64,000 nucleotides of DNA from Rhabdothermincola salaria (GTDB taxonomy: Bacteria; Actinomycetota; Acidimicrobiia; Acidimicrobiales; Acidimicrobilacustridaceae), in contig NZ_JAJQXW010000004.1 of the NCBI RefSeq assembly GCF_021246445.1, positions 186,001-250,000 on the forward strand, in the 5' to 3' direction. The translations under genes were made by a program, and so were the position numbers. This document shows, in pieces, positions 40,922 to 57,483 of this stretch; positions within the stretch are counted from its first letter, which is position 1; each line of letters begins with the position of its first letter. The notes under the pieces were generated by a model. That model was not told where the DNA came from and searched no databases. It saw nothing but the letters and a program-made list of their open reading frames with translations.

Positions 40922-43900
40922 TCAGCGGCGAACCGCCGCCCCCTGGGCCAGGCGGGCGGCGAAGAGCCGGTCACCGACATCGCCGCACATGGCTTCGGCC
41001 TCGCCGAGCCAGTTGGCGGCGGTGTTGTGGTCGCCCACCAACGCCGCCAGCCCGGCCAGCTGGGCCGACACGGGCCCCCACACCGACCCGCCGCCGCCAT
41101 AGCAGTTGAGCACGACGTACAGGTCCCGGTACGGGAGGAGCAGCTCGGACAGCGGCCCGGCCAGCGACCGCTCGCCGAGGCCTACCGTGGTCTCCGCCAA
41201 CATGGCCAGGGTGAGCAGGCGGTTCGAGTCGTGCGGCACGGACGCGAAGCCGTCGGCGGCGAAGCGGCCGAGCTCGGCGGCCGCGGTCGTCGCCTCTCCC
41301 GCCTGGAGGGCGGCGAAGGCCTTCACCGCCCGATAGCAGGGCACCCGAGGGTTCTCGAGGGCGGCCCGGTCGAGGAGGGGGATGACCTCGCCGGCGCGGC
41401 CCTGCAGCGTGCACAACAGGACCCGGTGCACCCCGAAGCAGGCCATCGCCCACGAGCTGTCACCTTCGTCCGTCGCCCGCTGCAGCGACTCCACGCTGGC
41501 GGCTTCGGCCGCCTCCAGGTCGCCTTCGAGCACCAGATCGAGCACCTTCCAGGTGGACAGCGCCCACGACCAATAGGGGTCGGGGAAGCGTTCGAGGTGC
41601 CGGGTGGCCCGGAGCATGGCCTCGCGGGCGGCGGCTCGGTCGCCGAGCACCAGCGCGTCCTCGTGGCGGTAGACGAGCGCGGCCGCGGTGACCTCGGGCA
41701 GGTGGCAGCGCTCCGACAAGGCCAACGCCTCTTCGCCTTCGCGGAACCGTTCGGCGGTGCGGTCCTGGGCCACCCGGTAGCGCTGGTCGAGCAGGGCGCG
41801 CGCCATCACCGCCGGGTCGCCGTGGCGACGAGCACGGTCCAGGGCCTCCTCGGCCGCCCGCTCGCGCTCGTCGTCGCGATCGGTCAGCAGCAGCGCCAGC
41901 GCCAACGAGCCGAGGAGCGGGATGCGCAGGTCGTCGTCGCCGGCGCTCAGGCCAACCAGGGCTTCCTCGACCAGCGCCACGTGGCGGTAGCGCGCCGGGT
42001 CGGGTGCACCCACGCCGCCCCCGCCCACGATGGCATGGACGGCCTCGGCCAAGCGGCGCGGCAGGGCGTAGAGGCGAGCGAGCTCCACGGCCTCGCCCAG
42101 GGCGTCGTCGGCGCCGGTCAGATCGCCGAGGCCGCGCCGGGCGCGACCGCGCACCACCAGCGCCCCCACCCGGTCGGCCGGCGCGGAGACGCGCGCCGAG
42201 AGCACGCCGCCCGCCAGGTGCTCGGCCATCTCCCAACCGCTGCGGTCGAGGGCGTCCTCGGCCGCGGCGAGCGCCCAGGTGCGGGCGGCGTCACCGTGGC
42301 CCTCCCCCGATCCGGCGTAGTGCCGGGCCAGCTCGATGGGGACGCCCGGGCGACCGGCCCACGGCAGGAGGGCCTCGGCCAGGCGGAGGTGGAACCAGGC
42401 CCGGCGGGCGGGTCCCAGCCCGGCGTCGACTGCGTCGCGCACCAGGGCGTGGCCGAACCGGACCCCGTCGCCGACCTCCACCAGCAGGCGGGCCCGCACC
42501 GTGGCGTCGACGGCCTCGTACAGGGCGCGATCGTCGAGCCCGGTGGCTTCCGAGAGCACGGTCAGATCGACCGACGAGCCCGCCAACGCCGCCACCGACA
42601 CCACCAGCTCGGCCTCGGGGGCCAGGGTGGCCACGCGCTGGCCCACGAGCTCGGTGAGACCGGGAGGCAGCGCCGCCGGGTCGAGGTGGCCCTCGGCGCT
42701 GGCGGCCGTCTTCACCAGCTCGGCGAGGAACAGCGGGTTGCCACCCGTGCGCTCGTGGACGACGGTGGCGACCTCGTCGGGTCGGACCACGCCGGCGTCG
42801 GCCAGCCAGCGGGCCACCGCGTCGCGGTCGAGCCCGTCGAGCTCCACGACGGCGCTCGGCACCTTCCACGCCAGATCGGCGAGGGCGGCGGCCAGGGCCG
42901 GATGGCGCTCCCGGCAGGTGGCCACGAGCGTCACGTCCCGATCGCCGAGCTGGACCAGCACGTGGGCGAGCATCGCCAACGACTCGGCGCCGGCCCACTG
43001 CAGGTCGTCGACGACCCACACCAGCGGGCGGTCGGCCAGGCGGTCGACGACCGCCGTGACGGCACCGAACAGGCGCGAGCGGGTGATGCCCGGGGCCGCA
43101 TCCTTGTCGCGGTGACCGAGGCGGACGGTCCCGAGGCCCAGCAGCGCCAGGTCGTCGCCCGACCGGGCGATCTCGGCGGTCACCCCCTCGTCGTCGGACA
43201 GGGCGTGGCGCAGCGCCGCGGCGACCGGCTCGTAGGGCAGTTCCGGAAAGGGGTCGCAGGCGCCCCACAGCACCCTGACGCCGTCGTCGCGAAGGCGTCC
43301 GCTGATCTCGGCGACCAGTCGGGTCTTGCCGACACCCGGCTCGCCCTCGATGACCAGGACCTGGGCTCGCCGATCGTCACGGTGGAAGGTGGCCAGAAGG
43401 TTCTCGAGGAGGGCGTCGCGCCCCACGAAGGGCCCGACCTGGCGATCGTTCGCGCCGCCCACGGCCCGCCTCGTCTCGGAGGACCGCTCATCGGACCGCC
43501 GGCTCACGTCCGAGCCGTCGAGGAGCTGCTCGCGAACGGCGACGAGGCGGGGGGACGGGCCCACCCCCAACTCCCGGCGCAGGGCCTCGACGTGGGCGTC
43601 GTGGGCCTTGCGGGCCTCGTAGTGGTCTCCGCTGCCGACCAGCGCCCGGAGCAGCAGGATGAACGCGTCCTCGTCGTAGGGGTCGGTGGCGAGGAGCTGG
43701 CGCAGGGGGGTCAGGGCCTCGAGGGGGGAACCGGCCTCGACCTGGGCCCGAGCGTGGAGCCGGGAGGCTCGGCGGCACATCTCCTCGATCTCCCGACGAC
43801 GCTCGTCGGCCCACACCAGGTCGACACCGGGGAGGAACCCGCCGACGAGCGCCTCGGCCGCGCCGGCCGCCAGGTCCACCGCACGCGAGGCCATGCCGTC

Positions 43901-44251
43901 TCGCAGGGCCACCTCGGCCCGCTGGGTGTCGAGGCGGGCGGCGTCGACGTCGATGCGGGCGTGGGTCGGGATGTCGAGGGTGATCACCCCGCCGTTGGTG
44001 ACGAGCACCTCTCGACCCGCACCGCTGGCCTCGAACGCCGCCCGCAGCTTGGCCAGCACCCCCCGCAACGCCCCCTGCCAGTGCGGCGAGAGCTCATCAC
44101 CCCAGAGCAGGTGGGCCAACTCGTCGCGGGCGATCGGCCGGTGCCGCTCGAGGGCCAGCACGGCCAGCGCCACCTGCACCTGGGGACGGCTCACCACCAC
44201 GGCGCCGGTCGGGCCGGCGATCGTCACCCCACCACAGAGCTGCAGCCGCAC
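40922..44251 (-). CDS. Large SARP-family regulator (BTAD-AAA ATPase)
   Basis: A 1109-residue AfsR-like regulator. An N-terminal OmpR-type winged helix (about residues 1-95) precedes a bacterial transcriptional activation domain (to about 245). An AAA/STAND ATPase follows with Walker A IEGEPGVGKTR and Walker B VWVVDDLQWAG, then a long helical repeat region of TPR type. These proteins activate operons from 11-base direct repeats, often for secondary metabolism. A second protein of the same design is at 53857-57483. It starts with GTG at 44251 and lies between accE and the metallophosphoesterase on the same strand. Confidence 0.88.
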   Translation of the reverse strand: MRLQLCGGVTIAGPTGAVVVSRPQVQVALAVLALERHRPIARDELAHLLWGDELSPHWQGALRGVLAKLRAAFEASGAGREVLVTNGGVITLDIPTHARIDVDAARLDTQRAEVALRDGMASRAVDLAAGAAEALVGGFLPGVDLVWADERRREIEEMCRRASRLHARAQVEAGSPLEALTPLRQLLATDPYDEDAFILLLRALVGSGDHYEARKAHDAHVEALRRELGVGPSPRLVAVREQLLDGSDVSRRSDERSSETRRAVGGANDRQVGPFVGRDALLENLLATFHRDDRRAQVLVIEGEPGVGKTRLVAEISGRLRDDGVRVLWGACDPFPELPYEPVAAALRHALSDDEGVTAEIARSGDDLALLGLGTVRLGHRDKDAAPGITRSRLFGAVTAVVDRLADRPLVWVVDDLQWAGAESLAMLAHVLVQLGDRDVTLVATCRERHPALAAALADLAWKVPSAVVELDGLDRDAVARWLADAGVVRPDEVATVVHERTGGNPLFLAELVKTAASAEGHLDPAALPPGLTELVGQRVATLAPEAELVVSVAALAGSSVDLTVLSEATGLDDRALYEAVDATVRARLLVEVGDGVRFGHALVRDAVDAGLGPARRAWFHLRLAEALLPWAGRPGVPIELARHYAGSGEGHGDAARTWALAAAEDALDRSGWEMAEHLAGGVLSARVSAPADRVGALVVRGRARRGLGDLTGADDALGEAVELARLYALPRRLAEAVHAIVGGGGVGAPDPARYRHVALVEEALVGLSAGDDDLRIPLLGSLALALLLTDRDDERERAAEEALDRARRHGDPAVMARALLDQRYRVAQDRTAERFREGEEALALSERCHLPEVTAAALVYRHEDALVLGDRAAAREAMLRATRHLERFPDPYWSWALSTWKVLDLVLEGDLEAAEAASVESLQRATDEGDSSWAMACFGVHRVLLCTLQGRAGEVIPLLDRAALENPRVPCYRAVKAFAALQAGEATTAAAELGRFAADGFASVPHDSNRLLTLAMLAETTVGLGERSLAGPLSELLLPYRDLYVVLNCYGGGGSVWGPVSAQLAGLAALVGDHNTAANWLGEAEAMCGDVGDRLFAARLAQGAAVRR

Positions 44252-47294: not shown

Positions 47295-48314
47295 TCAGCC
47301 GGTCCCGTCGGGGTGCCGGGCCCGGCTGGGCTGCACCCGGGCCGGTTCGCCGGCGGCCTTCGGGAAGTTCGGGGGCCAGGGCGCATCGCCGAGACCTTCG
47401 GCCTCGTCGCGGGCCGCCAGGTCGAGCAGGGGCTGGAGCGAGAACGCCTGGTCGTCCATGGGCTTCTCGAGGTCGCCGACGTCGGCCCAGCGCGCCGGCA
47501 CGGTGGCCAGCGTGAAGTCGGCCAGCTCGACGGCATCGAGCTCCTCCCACCGGAACGGCGCCGACACCCTGGCCTCGGGGTTGGCCCGCACCGAGTACAC
47601 CGACGCCACCGTGCGATCCCGAGCGTTCTGGTTGTAGTCGAGGAACACCCGGTCGCCTCGCTCCTCCTTCCACCACTTCGAGGTGGCCAGGTGGGGCACC
47701 CGCCGCTCGACCTCGCGGGCCAGGGCCAAGGCGGCCCGCCGCACCTCGAGGAAGCCCCACATGGCGGCGATGCGCACGTTGACGTGGATGCCCCGCGATC
47801 CCGAGGTCTTGGGCCACCCGACGAGCTGGTGCTCCTGGAGGACGTCTCGCACCACCCCGGCGACCTCTCGGACGGCGGCGAAGGGGACCCCCGGCTGGGG
47901 ATCGAGGTCGACCCGCAGCTCGTCGGGGTGGTCGAGGTCGAAGCGCCGCACGGCCCAGGGGTTGAGGTCGAGGCAACCGAGGTTCACCGCCCAGACGACG
48001 TGGGCCAGGTCGGCGGGGCAGAGCTCCTCGGCCGTGCGACCGCTCGGGAAGGCCACCGTGGTGGTCCTCAGCCACTCGGGGCGGCTCTTGGGCACCCGCT
48101 TCTGGAAGAACACCTTGCCCTCGGCGCCGTCCGGGAAGCGCTTCAGCACCGTGGGCCGGAGGTGCACGCCGCGCAGCGCCCCCTCGCCGACGAGGAGGTA
48201 GTGCTGGACCAGGTCGAGCTTGGTCTCGCCGCGAGCCGAGAAGAACACCTTGTCGGGATTGGTGACCTTCACCTCTCGGCCGGCCACCTCCACCATGGTG
48301 AACGGGCTCGCCAT
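47295..48314 (-). CDS. LigD-type primase-polymerase (PolDom)
   Basis: A 339-residue archaeo-eukaryotic primase-like polymerase, as in the polymerase module of LigD. It fills gaps with ribonucleotides in end joining or excision repair. Catalytic Asp residues lie in VDLDPQPG, the conserved His in TSGSRGIHVNV and the third Asp in FLDYNQN. Actinobacteria often carry such stand-alone PolDoms beside LigC ligases; Ku is not in this window. ATG at 48314 is used; another in-frame ATG 18 bases later is possible. Confidence 0.88.
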   Translation of the reverse strand: MASPFTMVEVAGREVKVTNPDKVFFSARGETKLDLVQHYLLVGEGALRGVHLRPTVLKRFPDGAEGKVFFQKRVPKSRPEWLRTTTVAFPSGRTAEELCPADLAHVVWAVNLGCLDLNPWAVRRFDLDHPDELRVDLDPQPGVPFAAVREVAGVVRDVLQEHQLVGWPKTSGSRGIHVNVRIAAMWGFLEVRRAALALAREVERRVPHLATSKWWKEERGDRVFLDYNQNARDRTVASVYSVRANPEARVSAPFRWEELDAVELADFTLATVPARWADVGDLEKPMDDQAFSLQPLLDLAARDEAEGLGDAPWPPNFPKAAGEPARVQPSRARHPDGTG

Positions 48315-48768: not shown

Positions 48769-49647
48769 TCAGGTCCGGGCGGCCGCCAGCCGCTCGGCCC
48801 GCGCGGCCAGGTCGGGGGCGTCGAGCGCCGCCGCCACCTCGGCGAAGCCCGGGGTGGGGCCGGTCCAGGCCAGCTCGGCCACCGATTCGATGGTGGGGGC
48901 ATCGGTCTCGATGGTGGCGATGCGGCGGAACAGCAGGGCCAGGTCGAGGTCCTGTTGGAGGGTGCTGGCCAGCTTGGCCGCCCCTCGCACCGACACGTCC
49001 CAGTCGGTGGCCGCCGCCGGGATCTCCTCGAGGTGCCCGTAGCGGGCCAGCACGGAGGCCGCCGACTTGGCTCCCCATCCCGGGAGCCCGGGGAACCCGT
49101 CGGCGCTGTCGCCGACCAGCGCGAGGTAGTCGGGGATCGACGCCGGCGGCACGCCGAACTTCTCCTCCACGCCGGCGGCGTCGAGGACCACGCCCTTGCG
49201 TCGATCGAGCTGCACGATTCGGTCGCCGACCACGCACTGGCCGAGGTCCTTGTCGGGGGTGCAGATGCGCACCTGGTCGACGGCCGGGTCGGTGGCCGCG
49301 ATCGCCGCTGCCGCCCCGAGGGCGTCGTCGGCCTCGAACTCGATCATGGCGAAGACGGTGAAGCCGGCGGCCGCGAGCGCGTCCTCGAGCAGGGGGAACT
49401 GCGCCAGCAGCTCGGGGGGCATGCCCTCGCTGGTCTTGTAGCCCTCCCACAGCTCGTTGCGGAACGACTCGACCACGTGGTCGGTGGCGATGCCGACGTG
49501 GGTGGCGCCCTCCGCGAGCAGTTGGAGCATCGAGCCCACCACGCCGCGGGTGGCCGCCACCTCCCGTCCGTCGGCCGTCACGTGCGACGGCACGGCGAAG
49601 TGGTACCGGAACAGCTCGTAGGTCCCGTCGACCAGGTGCACCTGCAT
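48769..49647 (-). CDS. 5'-3' exonuclease (PolI N-domain-like)
   Basis: A 292-residue flap-type nuclease like the N-terminal domain of DNA polymerase I. Metal-binding acidic residues lie in VHLVDGTYE, EFEADDALG and TPDKDLGQ, and the helix-3-turn-helix reads GDSADGFPGLPGWGAKSAA. Stand-alone forms remove RNA primers or flaps. It lies alone on the minus strand between tatA and the O-methyltransferase. Confidence 0.9.
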   Translation of the reverse strand: MQVHLVDGTYELFRYHFAVPSHVTADGREVAATRGVVGSMLQLLAEGATHVGIATDHVVESFRNELWEGYKTSEGMPPELLAQFPLLEDALAAAGFTVFAMIEFEADDALGAAAAIAATDPAVDQVRICTPDKDLGQCVVGDRIVQLDRRKGVVLDAAGVEEKFGVPPASIPDYLALVGDSADGFPGLPGWGAKSAASVLARYGHLEEIPAAATDWDVSVRGAAKLASTLQQDLDLALLFRRIATIETDAPTIESVAELAWTGPTPGFAEVAAALDAPDLAARAERLAAART

Positions 49648-49710: not shown

Positions 49711-50841
49711 TCAACGCTCCACGCGACCGACGCGAACCCCGAACACGTGGGCGACGTCGCCGGACGCCAGCCGGGTGCTGTGGTCGAGCTCCAGACCGGC
49801 GGAGCGGCCGAGCGTGCGGAGCTCCGACGCCGTGCGCTCCTTGCCCCCGTCGGTGAGCGCCGCCATCAACACGTCGGCGGCCACGGCCATGTCCGGGCGA
49901 GGAACGATCGTGCGCTCGCTGTCCACGACCACCACACGCGCTCGCCCCTCCGCCGCCTCGGCAACACGCTGGAGGATCCGGGACGCGTCGCGGTCGTCCC
50001 AATCGTGAACGACGTTGACCAGGAGGTAGGTGTCGAACCCCGGCGGCACCTGTTCGAAGGCATCACCACCGACGGCGGTCAACCGTGGATGGTCGACGGC
50101 ACGCTCGACGACGCCGGGGAGATCGAGAACGGTCGCCCGCCGACCGGGCAGCATCTCGAGCAGGGTCGCAGCCAGGGCGCCGGTGCCGCCGCCCACATCG
50201 CAGATGCTCTCGGTGCCGTCCCAGTCGAGGGCGGCGGCCAGCACGAGACCGTGCATGCGACCACCGGCAGCCATCGCCCGATCGAACGTCGCCCACCGGT
50301 CGGGATGGTCGGCCATCCACTCGAAGAAGGGGGCCCCGTTGGCCTGCGCGAAGCCGTCGGCTCTGCTGGAGTCGGCGGTGAGCCCGGCAACGGCGGTGAC
50401 GACCTCCTCGCCGCCGGAGAAGTCGACCCAGGCCCTCCAACCGCCGGGATGATCGTGTCGGAGGAAGGCGGTGACGGCGTTGGGTCGAACTCGACCTCGT
50501 CGATCCATGCCGACCCACCCGCGTGTGGCCGCGAAGCGAAGGAGCCGCTCGAGCATGGCCGGATCGGCGTCGAGCTCGGCCGCGAGATCGAGGATGCGTC
50601 TGGGGCCGGTGAGCGCTTCGGGGACCCCGGCCTGACAGATGGCCACCAGAACTCGGTGGTCGAGCATCCCGAAGACGCCCTCGAGGATCCTCGCCGGAGG
50701 CGGTGCCATGGATGCGTGGACCCGACCGAGGAGGGCTCGGATGCGGTTCCCGACGAGGGTGACCCTGCCAGATGGAAGGAACGGGACGCCCAGCACGTCC
50801 TTCGAGGTGGGCGCTGTGGCGAGGACGCTGGTCGTGTTCAC
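49711..50841 (-). CDS. SAM-dependent O-methyltransferase (family 2 type)
   Basis: A 376-residue methyltransferase. The N-terminal ~160 residues form a winged-helix dimerisation domain, and the SAM fold follows with DVGGGTGALAATLLEMLPG. The segment VNVVHDWDD matches the catalytic His-x-W region of plant and antibiotic O-methyltransferases. Small hydroxylated aromatic or polyketide substrates are typical. GTG at 50841 gives a full-length family member; a weak GAGAGAG site precedes it. It lies 73 bases after the MMPL gene with a perfect hairpin between. Probably part of the SARP-hemerythrin-MMPL block. Confidence 0.85.
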   Translation of the reverse strand: MNTTSVLATAPTSKDVLGVPFLPSGRVTLVGNRIRALLGRVHASMAPPPARILEGVFGMLDHRVLVAICQAGVPEALTGPRRILDLAAELDADPAMLERLLRFAATRGWVGMDRRGRVRPNAVTAFLRHDHPGGWRAWVDFSGGEEVVTAVAGLTADSSRADGFAQANGAPFFEWMADHPDRWATFDRAMAAGGRMHGLVLAAALDWDGTESICDVGGGTGALAATLLEMLPGRRATVLDLPGVVERAVDHPRLTAVGGDAFEQVPPGFDTYLLVNVVHDWDDRDASRILQRVAEAAEGRARVVVVDSERTIVPRPDMAVAADVLMAALTDGGKERTASELRTLGRSAGLELDHSTRLASGDVAHVFGVRVGRVER

Positions 50842-50866
50842 AGGATCTCTCTCGGGGTGAGTGGGT

Positions 50867-50898
50867 GGCTGGCGCCGGATCGGAGCTCGGCGCCAGCC
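50867..50898 (-). repeat. Perfect inverted repeat between MMPL and O-methyltransferase genes
   Basis: GGCTGGCGCC and GGCGCCAGCC pair over 10 bases around a 12-base loop, with no T-run. It may attenuate readthrough or stabilise the upstream message, lowering methyltransferase output relative to the exporter. Confidence 0.6.
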
Positions 50899-50914
50899 CG
50901 CTTGTCGGTTTGGA

Positions 50915-53083
50915 TCAGGCCGCGGCAACGAGCGGGTCCGCTTCAACGGGCGCTCTGGTCTCGAGCGCGAGCTGGGGCAAGCGGCGGTCGAGCCAGCCGG
51001 GCAGCCACCAATTGCGCTCGCCGAGGAGCTCCATGGTGGCCGGCACGAGGATCATGCGCACGAGTGTGGCGTCGAGGAGGACGGCCGTGGCGAGCCCGAG
51101 GCCGGCGAGTTTCGCGATCACGTCGTCGTTCAAGAGGAAGGCGCCGAAGACGACGACCATGATGGCCGCGGCGGCGGAGATCACCCGAGCGGTCGTGGCC
51201 AGTCCCTCCACCACGGCGTCGCTGTTGCTGCGCCCGCGCTGGTGCTCCTCGCGGATTCGGCTCAGGAGGAACACCTCGTAGTCCATCGAGAGGCCGAACA
51301 GCATCGCGAACATGAGGATGGGCACGAACACGGGCACTGGGGTGGCTTCGGGGATGCCGAGGAGCTCTCCGAACCGTCCGCCCTGCACGGCCAAGGCGAC
51401 CACCCCATAGGCCGCGGCGATTCCCAGGAGGTTCAGCACCGCCGCCTTGAGGGCCACCAGTGGTGCCCGGAAGACCGCCAGCAACAGAACGAAGGACAAG
51501 AGCAGGACGGCGGCGATGAACCACGGCAGGCGGCTTCCCTCGTGGTCCGCCTCGTCGATGAACAGCGCCGTGAGTCCACCGACGAGCACCCCGGTGCCCG
51601 TCTCCGCCGACACCGCCGGGAGCACCTCTGCCCGCAGCCGACGAACCAGAGCTTCGGTGGACGCGTCCTGGGGACCACCGACCGGCACAACCGTGAGCAG
51701 CGTGGTGGTGCCGCCGTCGTCCGTGGCACCGGGCAGCACCGCGGCGACGGCCGGATCGTCGACGAGTCGATCGGTCGCCACCTGCGCGGCCACCGGGGCA
51801 TCACCGGCCGGGGCATCGACGGTCACCAGGAGCGGCCCATTGGCGCCCGCCCCGAAGGCGGCGGCCGTCAGATCGAAGGCCCGCCGACTGGTGAGCGACG
51901 TGGGGTTGGTGCCGGCATCGGGGAATCCGAAGCGCAGGGTCGTCACCGGTGCGGCGAGACCAACGAGAATCACGACCGCGAGCAGGCCGAGGACGACCGG
52001 ACGGCGCTGGACGCTTCGGCTCCAGCGAGCCCATCGCTCCGAGCGTCCGGAATGGCGCCGAGCTCCAGGCATGTGGAAACGGTCGATGCCGTGCCCGACG
52101 AAGCCGAGGACCGCAGGAAGCAGGGTCAGCGCTGTGCCCATCACTGCTGCGACGGCGATCACCATCGCCAAGGCCGCGCCCCACATGTACTCGAGGCCGA
52201 TGATGCCGAGCCCGAGCAACGAGATGACCACCGTGCCCCCGGCGAAGACCACCGCACGCCCGGCGGTCGACATGGCCGTGACCACAGCTTCGTGCGGACT
52301 GGCTCCGGAGGCCAGTTCGTTGCGGTAGCGGGTGACGATGAACAACGCATAGTCGATGCCCACGCCGATGCCGATCATCGTCGCCAGCATCGAGCCCCAT
52401 TCGGGGATGTCGATCAGGTGGGCGATCAGCATGGCCAGGCCCGATCCCACTCCGAGGCCCACCAGGGCGAGAGCGATCGGCACCCCGGCAGCGAGGACCG
52501 ACCCGAAGGCAACGAGAAGGACCAGCAGAGCAGCGATGAGGCCGAGCCCTTCCTTGCCGGCGTCGCCCTGCTCGGCGTACTGGACGGGCCATCCCCCGAG
52601 CTCGATCTGCAGTCCGTCGCCGCCGGCAGCGACCGATCGGTCGATCAGCGCCCCGACGGCATCCGGGGGAACGGCTTCCGCCCGATCGTCGAGGGTCACC
52701 GCGACGAGCGTCGTTCGACCATCGGGTGCCGGTAGGGGCGCACCGACGTCGGCGACATGGGCCATGCCGGCCAGGCCGGCACGAAGTTCCTCGAGCCGAC
52801 GGGTGGCATCTTCGGTCGCCAGACCGGTCGACGCCTTGGCGACCAGGTACACGGCGTCACCTGCCCGGTCGGGGAACCGGTCGGTCATGAGCTGGCGGAC
52901 CGCAGCCGAGTCGGAGCCCGGCATCGAGTAGTCGGCGCGATGCTGGCCACCGGCGACGAACGCCAGTGCGGTCGCCAACGCCAACGCCATGGCCCAAGCA
53001 ACGACGACCCGGCGGCGTCGGTGGTAGCACCACGAGGCCAACCGTGCGATCCCGCTGGTGACCGGAGTCGAGCTGTGGCTCAT
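50915..53083 (-). CDS. MMPL-family RND transporter
   Basis: A 722-residue membrane exporter with 12 predicted helices in two halves, each with a large outer loop. The proton-relay Asp-Tyr pairs are seen as GIDYALFIVTRYRNE and SMDYEVFLLSRIREEH. The family exports lipids and natural products driven by the proton gradient. Here it is translationally coupled to the hemerythrin gene (ATGA) and followed by an O-methyltransferase, so export of a methylated small molecule or lipid is a reasonable guess. Confidence 0.88.
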   Translation of the reverse strand: MSHSSTPVTSGIARLASWCYHRRRRVVVAWAMALALATALAFVAGGQHRADYSMPGSDSAAVRQLMTDRFPDRAGDAVYLVAKASTGLATEDATRRLEELRAGLAGMAHVADVGAPLPAPDGRTTLVAVTLDDRAEAVPPDAVGALIDRSVAAGGDGLQIELGGWPVQYAEQGDAGKEGLGLIAALLVLLVAFGSVLAAGVPIALALVGLGVGSGLAMLIAHLIDIPEWGSMLATMIGIGVGIDYALFIVTRYRNELASGASPHEAVVTAMSTAGRAVVFAGGTVVISLLGLGIIGLEYMWGAALAMVIAVAAVMGTALTLLPAVLGFVGHGIDRFHMPGARRHSGRSERWARWSRSVQRRPVVLGLLAVVILVGLAAPVTTLRFGFPDAGTNPTSLTSRRAFDLTAAAFGAGANGPLLVTVDAPAGDAPVAAQVATDRLVDDPAVAAVLPGATDDGGTTTLLTVVPVGGPQDASTEALVRRLRAEVLPAVSAETGTGVLVGGLTALFIDEADHEGSRLPWFIAAVLLLSFVLLLAVFRAPLVALKAAVLNLLGIAAAYGVVALAVQGGRFGELLGIPEATPVPVFVPILMFAMLFGLSMDYEVFLLSRIREEHQRGRSNSDAVVEGLATTARVISAAAAIMVVVFGAFLLNDDVIAKLAGLGLATAVLLDATLVRMILVPATMELLGERNWWLPGWLDRRLPQLALETRAPVEADPLVAAA

Positions 53084-53748
53084 CGGGTCACCGCCGAAGA
53101 GTTGACCGTGAAGGCCGCCGCTGTCCGACGTGCGTAACGTCGTCGGCTCATTCGCCAGATCAACTCGATCATCTTCGGGGTGCTGTCGAACATCGCTTGC
53201 GTCTCGTCGGCGCTGAATGTCGAGACGAGCCACGGGACGGTGAAGGCCAGCTTGCGGGGGTCGTGATACTTCACAGCGCGTGCGTTCAGGGCCTCGAACT
53301 CAGCGGCAGTGAAGTGCCGCTCGAAGAGTGGCACCACGTCATCGTCCTCGGTTTCCAGATGTGACTGCACCAGCCGCGCCATCTGGACCGATGCATCGAT
53401 GGCAACTCGTTGGTTCACCGACCAGTCGCCGTCGAGAGCCAGTCCTTCGATGGCTTCCCCGAGACGGCCGCCGACGTCGTCGAGGTGGTCATGATCGGCG
53501 GCCAAGCCCGTCTCGTAGGCGGCGAACGTCGGTACCCGCTCGGCCAGGGCCGGGAAGAAGATGTCGTCCTCGATGACATGGTGGTCATGGAGGTACGCCG
53601 CAAAACCTCGGTACCACCAGTGCAGGGCACGGGCCCGGCTCCGGTCCCCCGTGGGGATCTGGCCGATGGTCACGGCGAGGTCGCCGGCACTCTGGCGGAG
53701 CGCTCGGTGGATGAGGCGGAAGGTCGTGGTGTCGGGGGCGTCGTCCAT
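53080..53748 (-). CDS. Hemerythrin-like cation-binding protein
   Basis: A 222-residue four-helix-bundle protein of the hemerythrin HHE type. Iron ligands are visible as HDHHVIEDDIFFP, ADHDHLDD and the HLETEDDDVVPLFERHF helix. Such domains bind a di-iron site that senses or stores oxygen, or repairs iron-sulfur damage. The C-terminal ~60 residues add a helical tail with VKYHDPRK. GAGGAG lies 6 bases before the ATG. It is first in the operon, just after three 11-base repeats. Pairing with an MMPL exporter is uncommon. Confidence 0.85.
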   Translation of the reverse strand: MDDAPDTTTFRLIHRALRQSAGDLAVTIGQIPTGDRSRARALHWWYRGFAAYLHDHHVIEDDIFFPALAERVPTFAAYETGLAADHDHLDDVGGRLGEAIEGLALDGDWSVNQRVAIDASVQMARLVQSHLETEDDDVVPLFERHFTAAEFEALNARAVKYHDPRKLAFTVPWLVSTFSADETQAMFDSTPKMIELIWRMSRRRYARRTAAAFTVNSSAVTR

Positions 53749-53782
53749 GGTGTCTCCTCAGTCGTCGGAACGGACTGGAAGC

Positions 53783-53832
53783 ACCGTGGGGCACGCCGGT
53801 TGGCGGGGACTTGGCGGGCACTTGGCGTGGGG
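53783..53832 (-). promoter_or_regulatory. SARP-type operator: three 11-base direct repeats before the hemerythrin operon
   Basis: On the minus strand the heptamer-like core CGCCAAG/C recurs three times with an exact 11-base period; on the plus strand the units are TTGGCGGGGAC, TTGGCGGGCAC and TTGGCGTGGGG (53800-53832). The proximal repeat lies 10 bases before CACGGT (53783-53788), a weak -10, close to the 8-base spacing known for SARP sites. A SARP gene ends 24 bases away. Confidence 0.55.
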
Positions 53833-53856
53833 CGGGCTCATCCCCGGTCGCGTACG

Positions 53857-56800
53857 TCAGCGGCGGCTTTCGGCAACCTGTCGGGCCACGTAGACCAGAT
53901 CGTGGGTGGAGGCCAGGGCCTCAACTCGCCGCAACGCATCCTCTCCGCGGGAGCGGTCGCCCGGCCCGGCCATGTCGAGGAGGAATCGCCCCTGGTAGAG
54001 GAGCGACCGTGCGAGCCAGGCCGGCGTTCGCAGCCGCTCGTGGCCGGCGACCGCCTCGTCGAAGAGAGTTCGGGCTCGCTCCGTGTCCCCGAGGAGCACA
54101 GCCGAACGGGCCAGGGCCAACCCGACGAGACCGGCGCTCCCGCCGCCGGATCCCGTCGCCGCCCATCGCCCCTCGAAGGGCTCGAGTTGAGACGCGATGG
54201 CCGATGCTCCAGCGATGTCACCGAGGCTGACCCGGGTGTGCAGGCCATAGGTCGCTGCGCTGAGCATCGTGTAGTCGTCGGCGAACGGGATGCCGGTGTC
54301 GATCTGATCGACGACCGACGCCGCCATGTCGAGCCGACCAGCCTCGGTCACCAGCCATCCGGAGAACTCGGCGGCGAGTCGCCCGTAGTGAGGGCTGGCG
54401 GCCGCCGCCGCCCTGATCCGGGGCATGGTCGCGTCGATGCCACCTCGGTCAGCGGCGATGGCCGCGACCTGAGCCATCTCCATGAGGTCGGCATCCATTC
54501 GCCGGGTCCGTCGGTAACGGAGGGCCGCCTCGCTGCACAACGCCTGTGCCTCCTCGTACCGGCCGTGCGCGAGCGCCATGGCGCCCTGGAACCATCCGAG
54601 CTGAGCGAGCAACGGACCTCCGCCGATCCGGTCGGCCACGGCGCGGCACTCGGCGATGTGCGACGCGGCGCCGTCGTGGTCAGCCGATTCGTAGTGCGTC
54701 AGCGCGAGCTGAAAGCGAGCGATGAGTGCGAGGTGGTCGTCGAGCCCGTGCGTCTCGACGAGCTCGAGCACCTCGAGAGCGGACCTTCGACGCTCAGCGA
54801 GCTTGGTCGGTTCGAGGGGCCCACTGGCGTTCAGCATGACGCGACCGAGGACGTAGGGGTCGCCCGAGGCCCGGGCGGCCTCCACCGCCTCCGACCGGAC
54901 TCCTTCGATCGCGGCGCTGTCTCCATAGGTCAACTCGACGGCAAGAGCCCCGAGCACGAGAGCCCGGCTCACGAAGTCGCCATGGTCGAGGAGGTCCGCA
55001 GTGCGCCGGAGAGCGGCGATGCACCGGGGATCGACCGTCCCGTAGCTCTGGTTGGGCCACAGATGGGGGCTGCCGAGCAGCGCCGCGGCCCGGCCGAGTG
55101 CCGCCACGTCACCTGCCACCTCCGCCAGTTCCATTGCCTCGAGCGCCGCCCTCCTCGCCGCTTCCACCAGATCGGCTTCGAAGCGGACGGCCGCCAGGTT
55201 GCACAGGGCACCGATCCGTCCGGCGAGGTCGCCGGGACGGAACGAAGCCAACGACTCGACCACGCGAGCCCAGTGACCGGCCGCGTCCTCGAAGCCGAAC
55301 TGGTCGCTGGCCAGGCGGGCCGCCTCCGTGGAGGCCTCGATCGCCAACTCGGCCGTCCCGGCCATGGCCCCGGCCATGGCGTGGTGGGCGACCAGCGCAG
55401 CGCTCGAGCCCAGTACCGGGCCGGTGCGCCGGGCGACCGTGCGAGCGACGGCGGCATGGATACGGGCGCTGCGAACGGAATTGACCTCCGCCGCCAGCGC
55501 GTCGCAGACGAGGGCGTGGGAGAAGCGGAAGCGGCCGCCTTCCTCGTCGACCACCAGTCCAGCGTCGAGAGCCGGGGCAAGGGCATCGAGGGCTGCATCC
55601 AGCGGCTCCTCCGCCACGGTGGCCACCACAGTCAGCTCGAACCGGCGGCCGACCACCGACGCAACGGTCAACAGCTGCTGGGTGGGGGCGGGCAGTCGGG
55701 CGACCCGGCGCCTCACCACGAACTGCACCCCGGGCGGGATGGCGGTAGCAGCACGAGCCGCTGATGCATCCGTGAGCCGACCCTCGGAGGCCAACAACTC
55801 ACTGAGCTCTTTGACGAACAGGGGATTGCCCCCCGTGCGGTCGTGGACCAGGGCGGCGACGTCGCTCGGCACGTCGACACCTGTTCGAGCGGCGAGCCAC
55901 TCGGAAACTGCGCCCTTCTCGAGGCCGAAGAGCGGGACCTGCACGATCCCGGGGGTCCGGGACAAGGCGCCGAGTGCATCGACCAGCGCCACCCCGCTGT
56001 CATCCTCGAGCGGCCTGACCGTCACCACCACCAGGATCGAAAGGTCGGTCAGCTCACCGGCGACGTGAACGAGGAGGCGAAGGCTGTCGGCATCGGCCCA
56101 TTGGAGATCGTCGATCACCAGCAACAGAGGCACCTTCGCCGAGCGCAACGTGTCCACGACGGCGCGATACAGGGCGAAAACGGCACCCGGGGCGACCTCG
56201 GACGACTGGTGGTATTCGTCGGGCGGAACGAGAACCCGGTCGACGACGCCTGCCTCGCGGACCTGTTCGGCGAGATGGGTCGCGGACCAGAACGACGGTG
56301 TGGCGCCGCTCTCGGGACAGCGGGCCCACGCGGTGACGAAGCCGCGCTGTCGGGCCGCGGCGGCCACCTCCTCGACCAGTCGCGTCTTCCCGACTCCCGG
56401 TTCCCCGAGCACCACGGCGGCAGCACCTCGACCGGCCGCGGCGCCGGCGAGGGCCGCCATGAGGGCGGCCAGCTCCCCGTGGCGGCCTATCAGCACGGGC
56501 CGGTCGGGTACCGCCACCGGCGACGCTGATCCCGAACCAGCGTCGTCGACGGGCGACGACCTCCGTGGCGGCTCGTCGGGCGCCGACGGGCTCGAAGGGC
56601 GCCACTGGAGCGCCATCGAGTGGTTCAAGAGATCGGCCTCGAGATCCCGCAACTCCGGGCCGGGGTCGAGACCGGCCGTGTTCGCCAGCGCTCGCCGAAC
56701 TCGCTCAACCACACGCAAGGCCTCGGCCTGTCGGCCGGACCGGTACAGACCGAGAGCAAGGAGGGTGTGGAGGTGCTCGTCGAGCGGGTACTCGGCGACA

Positions 56801-57483
56801 GCCGACTCCAGCATGCCCACGACCTCGATGTGGTGGCCGAGACCGAGACGAGCCTGCGCGGCGAGGGCCAACGCGGCAAGGCGCCTCGACGAGAGGCGGG
56901 CGGTCGCCTCCACCACGAACGGCTCGTGGGCGAACTCGGGCAGCGGCGGACCGGTCCACAGGGCCAGGGCTTGATCGAGAGCTGCTACGGCGCCCGCCGG
57001 GTCGCCGGTGCGGAGACGGGTTCGGCCGTTGGCCACGAGATCCTCGAAGTGCAAGACGTCGACCTCGCGCCGACTCACATCGAGGCTGTACCCGGGGGCC
57101 TGCGTCCGCAGCACCTTGGCCGCCTGTCGCGGCCGACGGTCGGGTTCGAGCGCCCGGCGGAGGTTCGACACATAGGTCTGCAACGACACCCGCGCCTTCG
57201 GAGAGTCGTCCCAGAGCAGTTCGACGAGGCGATCAGAGGCGACGACCCTGCCGGCTTCGAGCAGGAGTACGGCCAGCACCGAGCGCTGCTTGGGAGGGCC
57301 GAGTTCGACCACCTGCCCGTCCACACGGACTTCGAGCCCGCCGAACAGTCGGTGGTACCGAATGGGGGAGCCCGCTCCTCTCGCCGAAACGGAACGGCTC
57401 TCATCGCCCACCGCCAGGGTCGGCCCCCCGGGATCGCCGTTCATGAGCCGGGGATCGTAGTCATCCGTGCGATGAGAGCGCAT
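53857..57483 (-). CDS. Large SARP-family regulator (second), BTAD-AAA ATPase
   Basis: A 1208-residue AfsR-like regulator. About 40 extra residues precede the winged helix (about 42-135, with LGPPKQRSVLAVLLLEAG), then the BTAD domain to about 290. The ATPase has Walker A VLGEPGVGKTR and Walker B LLLVIDDLQWADADS, with GGNPLF typical of the STAND group. A long TPR-like repeat region fills the C-terminal half. ATG at 57444 is a likely alternative start. It lies immediately upstream of the hemerythrin-MMPL operon, whose promoter carries 11-base repeats. Confidence 0.88.
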   Translation of the reverse strand: MRSHRTDDYDPRLMNGDPGGPTLAVGDESRSVSARGAGSPIRYHRLFGGLEVRVDGQVVELGPPKQRSVLAVLLLEAGRVVASDRLVELLWDDSPKARVSLQTYVSNLRRALEPDRRPRQAAKVLRTQAPGYSLDVSRREVDVLHFEDLVANGRTRLRTGDPAGAVAALDQALALWTGPPLPEFAHEPFVVEATARLSSRRLAALALAAQARLGLGHHIEVVGMLESAVAEYPLDEHLHTLLALGLYRSGRQAEALRVVERVRRALANTAGLDPGPELRDLEADLLNHSMALQWRPSSPSAPDEPPRRSSPVDDAGSGSASPVAVPDRPVLIGRHGELAALMAALAGAAAGRGAAAVVLGEPGVGKTRLVEEVAAAARQRGFVTAWARCPESGATPSFWSATHLAEQVREAGVVDRVLVPPDEYHQSSEVAPGAVFALYRAVVDTLRSAKVPLLLVIDDLQWADADSLRLLVHVAGELTDLSILVVVTVRPLEDDSGVALVDALGALSRTPGIVQVPLFGLEKGAVSEWLAARTGVDVPSDVAALVHDRTGGNPLFVKELSELLASEGRLTDASAARAATAIPPGVQFVVRRRVARLPAPTQQLLTVASVVGRRFELTVVATVAEEPLDAALDALAPALDAGLVVDEEGGRFRFSHALVCDALAAEVNSVRSARIHAAVARTVARRTGPVLGSSAALVAHHAMAGAMAGTAELAIEASTEAARLASDQFGFEDAAGHWARVVESLASFRPGDLAGRIGALCNLAAVRFEADLVEAARRAALEAMELAEVAGDVAALGRAAALLGSPHLWPNQSYGTVDPRCIAALRRTADLLDHGDFVSRALVLGALAVELTYGDSAAIEGVRSEAVEAARASGDPYVLGRVMLNASGPLEPTKLAERRRSALEVLELVETHGLDDHLALIARFQLALTHYESADHDGAASHIAECRAVADRIGGGPLLAQLGWFQGAMALAHGRYEEAQALCSEAALRYRRTRRMDADLMEMAQVAAIAADRGGIDATMPRIRAAAAASPHYGRLAAEFSGWLVTEAGRLDMAASVVDQIDTGIPFADDYTMLSAATYGLHTRVSLGDIAGASAIASQLEPFEGRWAATGSGGGSAGLVGLALARSAVLLGDTERARTLFDEAVAGHERLRTPAWLARSLLYQGRFLLDMAGPGDRSRGEDALRRVEALASTHDLVYVARQVAESRR

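Follow-up and report, generated by a model that had tools for sequence, protein, structure and literature searches.

A probable SARP-dependent promoter of a hemerythrin-MMPL operon in Rhabdothermincola salaria

Promoters served by SARP regulators are known to carry direct repeats 11 or 22 bp apart, the last of which is situated near the -10 element (PMC10936776). In the case of AfsR two 11-bp repeats at -40 to -19 are found together with a -10 of CACTGT; each AfsR contacts the first 8 bp of a repeat, R92 contacting the T at repeat position 3, and the dimer holds sigma region 4, replacing a good -35 (PMC10936776). PimR, a SARP-LAL regulator, protects three CGGCAAG heptamers with 4-bp spacers, and its binding needs at least two heptamers (PMC3367932, PMC5930380). 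Operators of the PimR type are also known for ScnRI, PteR, FilR, SanG and PolR.

The window examined here, i.e. the whole stretch of 64,000 nucleotides analysed, contains three 11-bp direct repeats in exact register, TTGGCGGGGAC (53800-53810), TTGGCGGGCAC (53811-53821) and TTGGCGTGGGG (53822-53832), inside the 108-bp intergenic gap between the stop codon of a SARP gene and the ATG of a hemerythrin (HHE) gene (Table 1). The meaningful reading is that of the minus strand, the shared direction of the SARP, HHE and MMPL genes, on which three heptamers with 4-bp spacers are read as CGCCAAG-tgcc-CGCCAAG-tccc-CGCCAAC (53827-53799). The exact 11-base spacing had been recognized in a first-pass annotation made from the sequence alone and is confirmed at 53800-53832. 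The span proposed there, 53783-53832, is right at its end, while its start lies 17 bp before the repeats and coincides with the last base of the -10 box; the distance to the operon, given as 52 bases, is in fact 51 bp from the repeats to the HHE ATG. The same annotation placed the site just upstream of a -10, and a conserved one was found 10 bp downstream of the last heptamer; it also called the adjacent gene a 1208-residue SARP, with which the Pfam domains and the AfsR and EmbR matches agree.

Table 1. Features of the SARP-hemerythrin-MMPL locus, with positions in the window
Feature	Position	Strand	Basis
Large SARP regulator, 1208 aa, proposed activator	53857..57483	-	Pfam; matches AfsR and EmbR structures
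Heptamer 1, CGCCAAG, most upstream	53821..53827	-	Sequence; PimR consensus CGGCAAG except one base (PMC3367932)
Heptamer 2, CGCCAAG, preceded by 4-bp spacer tgcc	53810..53816	-	Sequence and comparison with relatives
Heptamer 3, CGCCAAC, preceded by 4-bp spacer tccc	53799..53805	-	Sequence and comparison with relatives
-10 element CACGGT (xANNNT), 10 bp after heptamer 3	53783..53788	-	Offset conserved in 13/14 SARP-linked sites
HHE ribosome-binding site GAGGAG, probable	53754..53759	-	Sequence
Hemerythrin HHE-domain protein, 222 aa, first target-operon gene	53080..53748	-	PF01814, E 3e-11
MMPL-family transporter, 722 aa	50915..53083	-	PF03176; junction sequence

The SARP has the make-up of the large AfsR/PimR type, with an N-terminal winged helix and BTAD (OmpR-type DNA-binding domain PF00486 at residues 63-133 and PF03704 at residues 141-286, both by Pfam) and a C-terminal NTPase with a sensor-like region (PF13191 AAA_16 ATPase at residues 331-486, then weak TPR matches). 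Its DNA-binding part matches the solved AfsR and EmbR structures in a phmmer search, and it matches the kinase/cyclase fusion model TIGR03903 partially and below the cut-off. It is not an AfsR orthologue, since it scores 145.8 bits against the equivalog model NF053617, for which the cut-off is 1430. In the HHE protein the expected ligands of a di-iron centre, histidines and acidic residues, are present. The ATG of the MMPL gene overlaps the HHE stop codon (ATGA), which makes translational coupling likely; an alternative GTG start at 53233 is less likely. The MMPL gene is followed by an O-methyltransferase frame (Methyltransf_2, 49711-50946, minus strand). Downstream of the operon adjoin genes for a LigD-type primase-polymerase and a 5'-3' exonuclease (47295-48314 and 48769-49647, both minus strand), which are suggestive of a repair pair.

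The site resembles the PimR operator of the pimM promoter in S. natalensis in its three heptamers and 4-bp spacers, the heptamer differing in C for G at position 3, and the regulators are alike in being large SARPs with an ATPase-containing C-terminal half and in having a single target (PMC3367932, PMC5930380). The main PimR site, however, is well upstream of the mapped promoter, whereas only 10 bp lie between the present site and its -10, the distance seen with ordinary SARPs, and the target is a hemerythrin-MMPL operon instead of a polyene activator. In the pimM promoter as printed in PMC5930380 the last PimR heptamer is followed by GATTCCGACAAAGGTC, with AAAGGT (xANNNT) at 9 bp, so this operator, reported to be far from the promoter, might have a SARP-type start nearby, a single case which could be due to chance. 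The afs box of afsS in S. coelicolor is similar in its equivalent spacing and weak -10 (CACTGT there, PMC10936776) and differs in having two repeats instead of three, another heptamer and afsS as the target. With the -10 hexamer at -12 to -7 the last heptamer would fall at -29 to -23, followed by 10 bp, which would be the AfsR geometry. As in SARP-dependent promoters, 11-bp repeats are present, the last at a fixed short distance from a weak -10, and the -35 is poor or absent; no sigma-70-type promoter was found in 53600-54000.

Judging from sequence comparison, the repeats very probably serve as operator in a SARP-dependent promoter which drives the hemerythrin-MMPL operon on the minus strand, with the adjacent SARP as the most likely activator. 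SARP monomers, most likely from the upstream gene, would line up along one face of the DNA, each on its own 11-bp unit, and would probably occupy the three repeats cooperatively. The bound SARPs would hold the RNA polymerase core and sigma region 4 in place of the missing -35, and transcription would start from the weak -10 near 53776, leaving about 28 nt ahead of the HHE ATG. As in AfsR, the activity of this large SARP may be gated by its C-terminal ATPase part. In this scheme we infer that binding and activation take place, which SARP is bound and which signal gates it; the hemerythrin suggests that the signal is oxygen, peroxide, nitric oxide or iron. Autoregulation of the SARP in the window was considered and is unsupported, the genome being without a second site.

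We gathered within the class, without use of the motif, 26 places encoding relatives of the SARP (E <= 1e-70, window included). According to the first-pass annotation, its proposal would fail if the 11-base spacing were lost in relatives that keep the gene order. One such relative was found, L027, in a genome (G022) of another genus of the same family, where the SARP-HHE-MMPL order is kept and the identities to the window are 41-44% for the SARP, 40% for the HHE protein, which also has the expected di-iron ligands, and 56% for the MMPL protein. Its gap opens with CGCCAAG-cgat-CTCCAAG, overlapping the SARP stop codon, continues with CCCCAAG and CCGCAAC, and has GACGGT 10 bp farther on; with heptamer spacings of 11, 10 and 11 bp the 11-bp spacing is largely kept. 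No homologue of the O-methyltransferase was found near L027. Pairs similar to CGCCAAG at 11 bp adjoin the SARP in L027, L029, L065, L072, L074 and L075. As these loci are related, their conserved sites count as only partly independent. The flanks of 28 other SARP loci (the collected relatives and some SARPs of the same genome) place CGCCAAG first among 210 letter permutations, with seven loci; the next best reach four, some of them being CGCCAAG shifted in frame, and 11 bp tops the spacing profile. One of the seven loci, L079, is without a -10 and was judged false. The motif is absent from about two thirds of related SARPs, which indicates that specificity varies.

Genome G022 also possesses a second SARP-HHE pair (L029:7360-7784), whose operator is directed at the SARP itself and at a gene of 127 aa, the HHE gene being divergent. 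Only 8 bp separate the -10 of this site, CACGCT, from the ATG, an arrangement suggestive of autoregulation and of a leaderless transcript.

The site could also be a genuine SARP operator to which another of the genome's SARPs binds, or one that mainly serves a gene other than HHE-MMPL, and we regard this as very improbable. The genome does hold five BTAD matches besides the studied SARP, but the site adjoins the SARP gene in the window and in relatives, and a VSNLRR-type helix is present only in the adjacent SARP among the aligned SARPs of this genome. As for the target, at other loci the operator faces genes for DUF2269, an FAD enzyme, a LuxR-type regulator and a solute-binding protein; in the window, however, its orientation and the -10 point to HHE, which has the next downstream start codon. 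No CGCCAAG site was found near the SARPs of this genome that were scanned. A second large BTAD-containing regulator (43520-43951, minus strand, open frame of 1125 aa) is situated about 10 kb from the studied SARP.

Unlike AfsR, the SARP of the window has N at the position of R92 (QTYVSNLRR). Of 16 motif-linked SARPs 12 have N at this position and none has R, while R is present in 10 of 25 SARPs without the motif (Fisher p 0.003, a value inflated by shared ancestry and taken as supporting evidence only). The recognition helix appears to covary with the heptamer motif.

A short tandem repeat made by chance or slippage in GC-rich intergenic DNA, with no regulatory role, could resemble such a site. 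For the exact spaced pattern with up to three mismatches 0.04 occurrences are expected per window, and it is present at this place; a motif-free test (a 7-mer equal at +11 and with at most one mismatch at +22) gave one place in the window and none in each of 10 Markov simulations. The triple is the only exact match in the 3.9-Mb genome; the remaining matches carry three mismatches and are as frequent as those of the reversed control. With the -10 included in the pattern it is again the sole mismatch-free match, the others having two mismatches, and the reversed control is similar. A blind scan of genome contigs for exact CGCCAAS-N4-CGCCAAS-N4-CGCCAA returned at least 120 stretches, and among the matches listed these are mostly from unrelated bacteria and evidently due to chance or tandem-repeat DNA. 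Class-wide, the relaxed CGSCAAG triple is no commoner than the reversed control, and mismatch-tolerant searches for the triple in the class and the phylum were at or near the reversed-control rate, so the motif alone is an unreliable finder and SARP context or the -10 is needed.

An xANNNT hexamer exactly 10 bp past the last heptamer is present in 13 of the 14 SARP-linked sites (nominal p 3e-21) and in at most one of them at any other offset from 0 to 34. The rule emerged from the first eight sites, and five of six further ones obeyed it, the exception being L116, with a triple near a SARP and no -10; L225 and L066 were left out of the count, having been picked with a bonus for the -10. Among the matches listed, the hexamer at this offset was found in all five SARP-linked triples of the blind scan, in 6 of 36 actinobacterial triples without a detected SARP, some of which may be real, and in 7 of 129 triples outside actinobacteria, which equals background. 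The five, each with a SARP, the full motif and a -10, are from Streptomyces phaeofaciens (L097), S. griseorubiginosus (L133), S. pyxinicus (L198), Phytohabitans suffuscus (L202) and a Streptosporangiaceae MAG (L206). The SARP and hemerythrin genes of L097 and L133 are divergent, and the triple between them faces the hemerythrin gene. A chance or slippage origin is highly improbable, as the repeats recur at SARP genes of other families and of another class, in differing gene arrangements and with differing spacers, and the -10 is conserved at a fixed distance.

Hemerythrin homologues were also gathered, without use of the motif, in 150 genomes of one genus, probably Streptomyces. By strict search the repeats are present in four of seven hemerythrin loci adjoining a SARP (L214-L217) and in none of six not adjoining one. 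The pairs without a strict match are L218, L224 and L225, the last of which has a weaker match with a -10. The 10-bp rule is also true of L215 and L217, and in L216 after a further heptamer copy, while in L214 the distance is 9 bp and the hexamer GACCCT. A search for related loci with the hemerythrin as the query found none. Two Nocardia loci (L158:983-1010 and L190) have a common CGCCAAC triple, CATAGT at 10 bp and similar downstream sequence; no SARP was detected within the 8 kb examined, and the triple may be a genuine SARP-type site that works over a distance.

The least probable reading is that of an RNA element, a terminator of the SARP gene or a structure in the HHE 5' leader, because the gap, which does come after a stop codon and can fold, contains no terminator-like site that we could find, folds with an energy no better than that of shuffles (z -1.0), and would have its repeats outside the transcript if transcription starts near 53776 as predicted.

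Taken together, the relatives, the Streptomyces SARP-hemerythrin sites and the conserved -10 support by comparison the original proposal of a SARP operator through which the adjacent SARP is linked to the hemerythrin-MMPL operon. As a switch it belongs to a known kind, being very probably a SARP-activated promoter, with an unusual target; what is new is the conserved link between SARP and hemerythrin. In our literature search we found described neither the pairing of SARP with hemerythrin nor a SARP promoter of such type outside Streptomyces-like antibiotic clusters. Both co-directional and divergent pairs occur, and their presence in two classes connects SARPs to hemerythrin genes beyond a single bacterial class. 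The locus offers a precise and testable set of regulator, promoter and target outside Streptomyces secondary metabolism, together with a rule that can be used in searches, namely heptamer repeats spaced 11 bp with an xANNNT 10 bp after the last one. It is a tentative idea, and one we would not yet favor, that SARPs of this branch and hemerythrin form an old actinobacterial module responsive to redox, oxygen or nitric oxide and outside antibiotic control, in which the SARP would activate hemerythrin, here along with an MMPL exporter of lipids or drugs, and might itself receive feedback from the di-iron protein.
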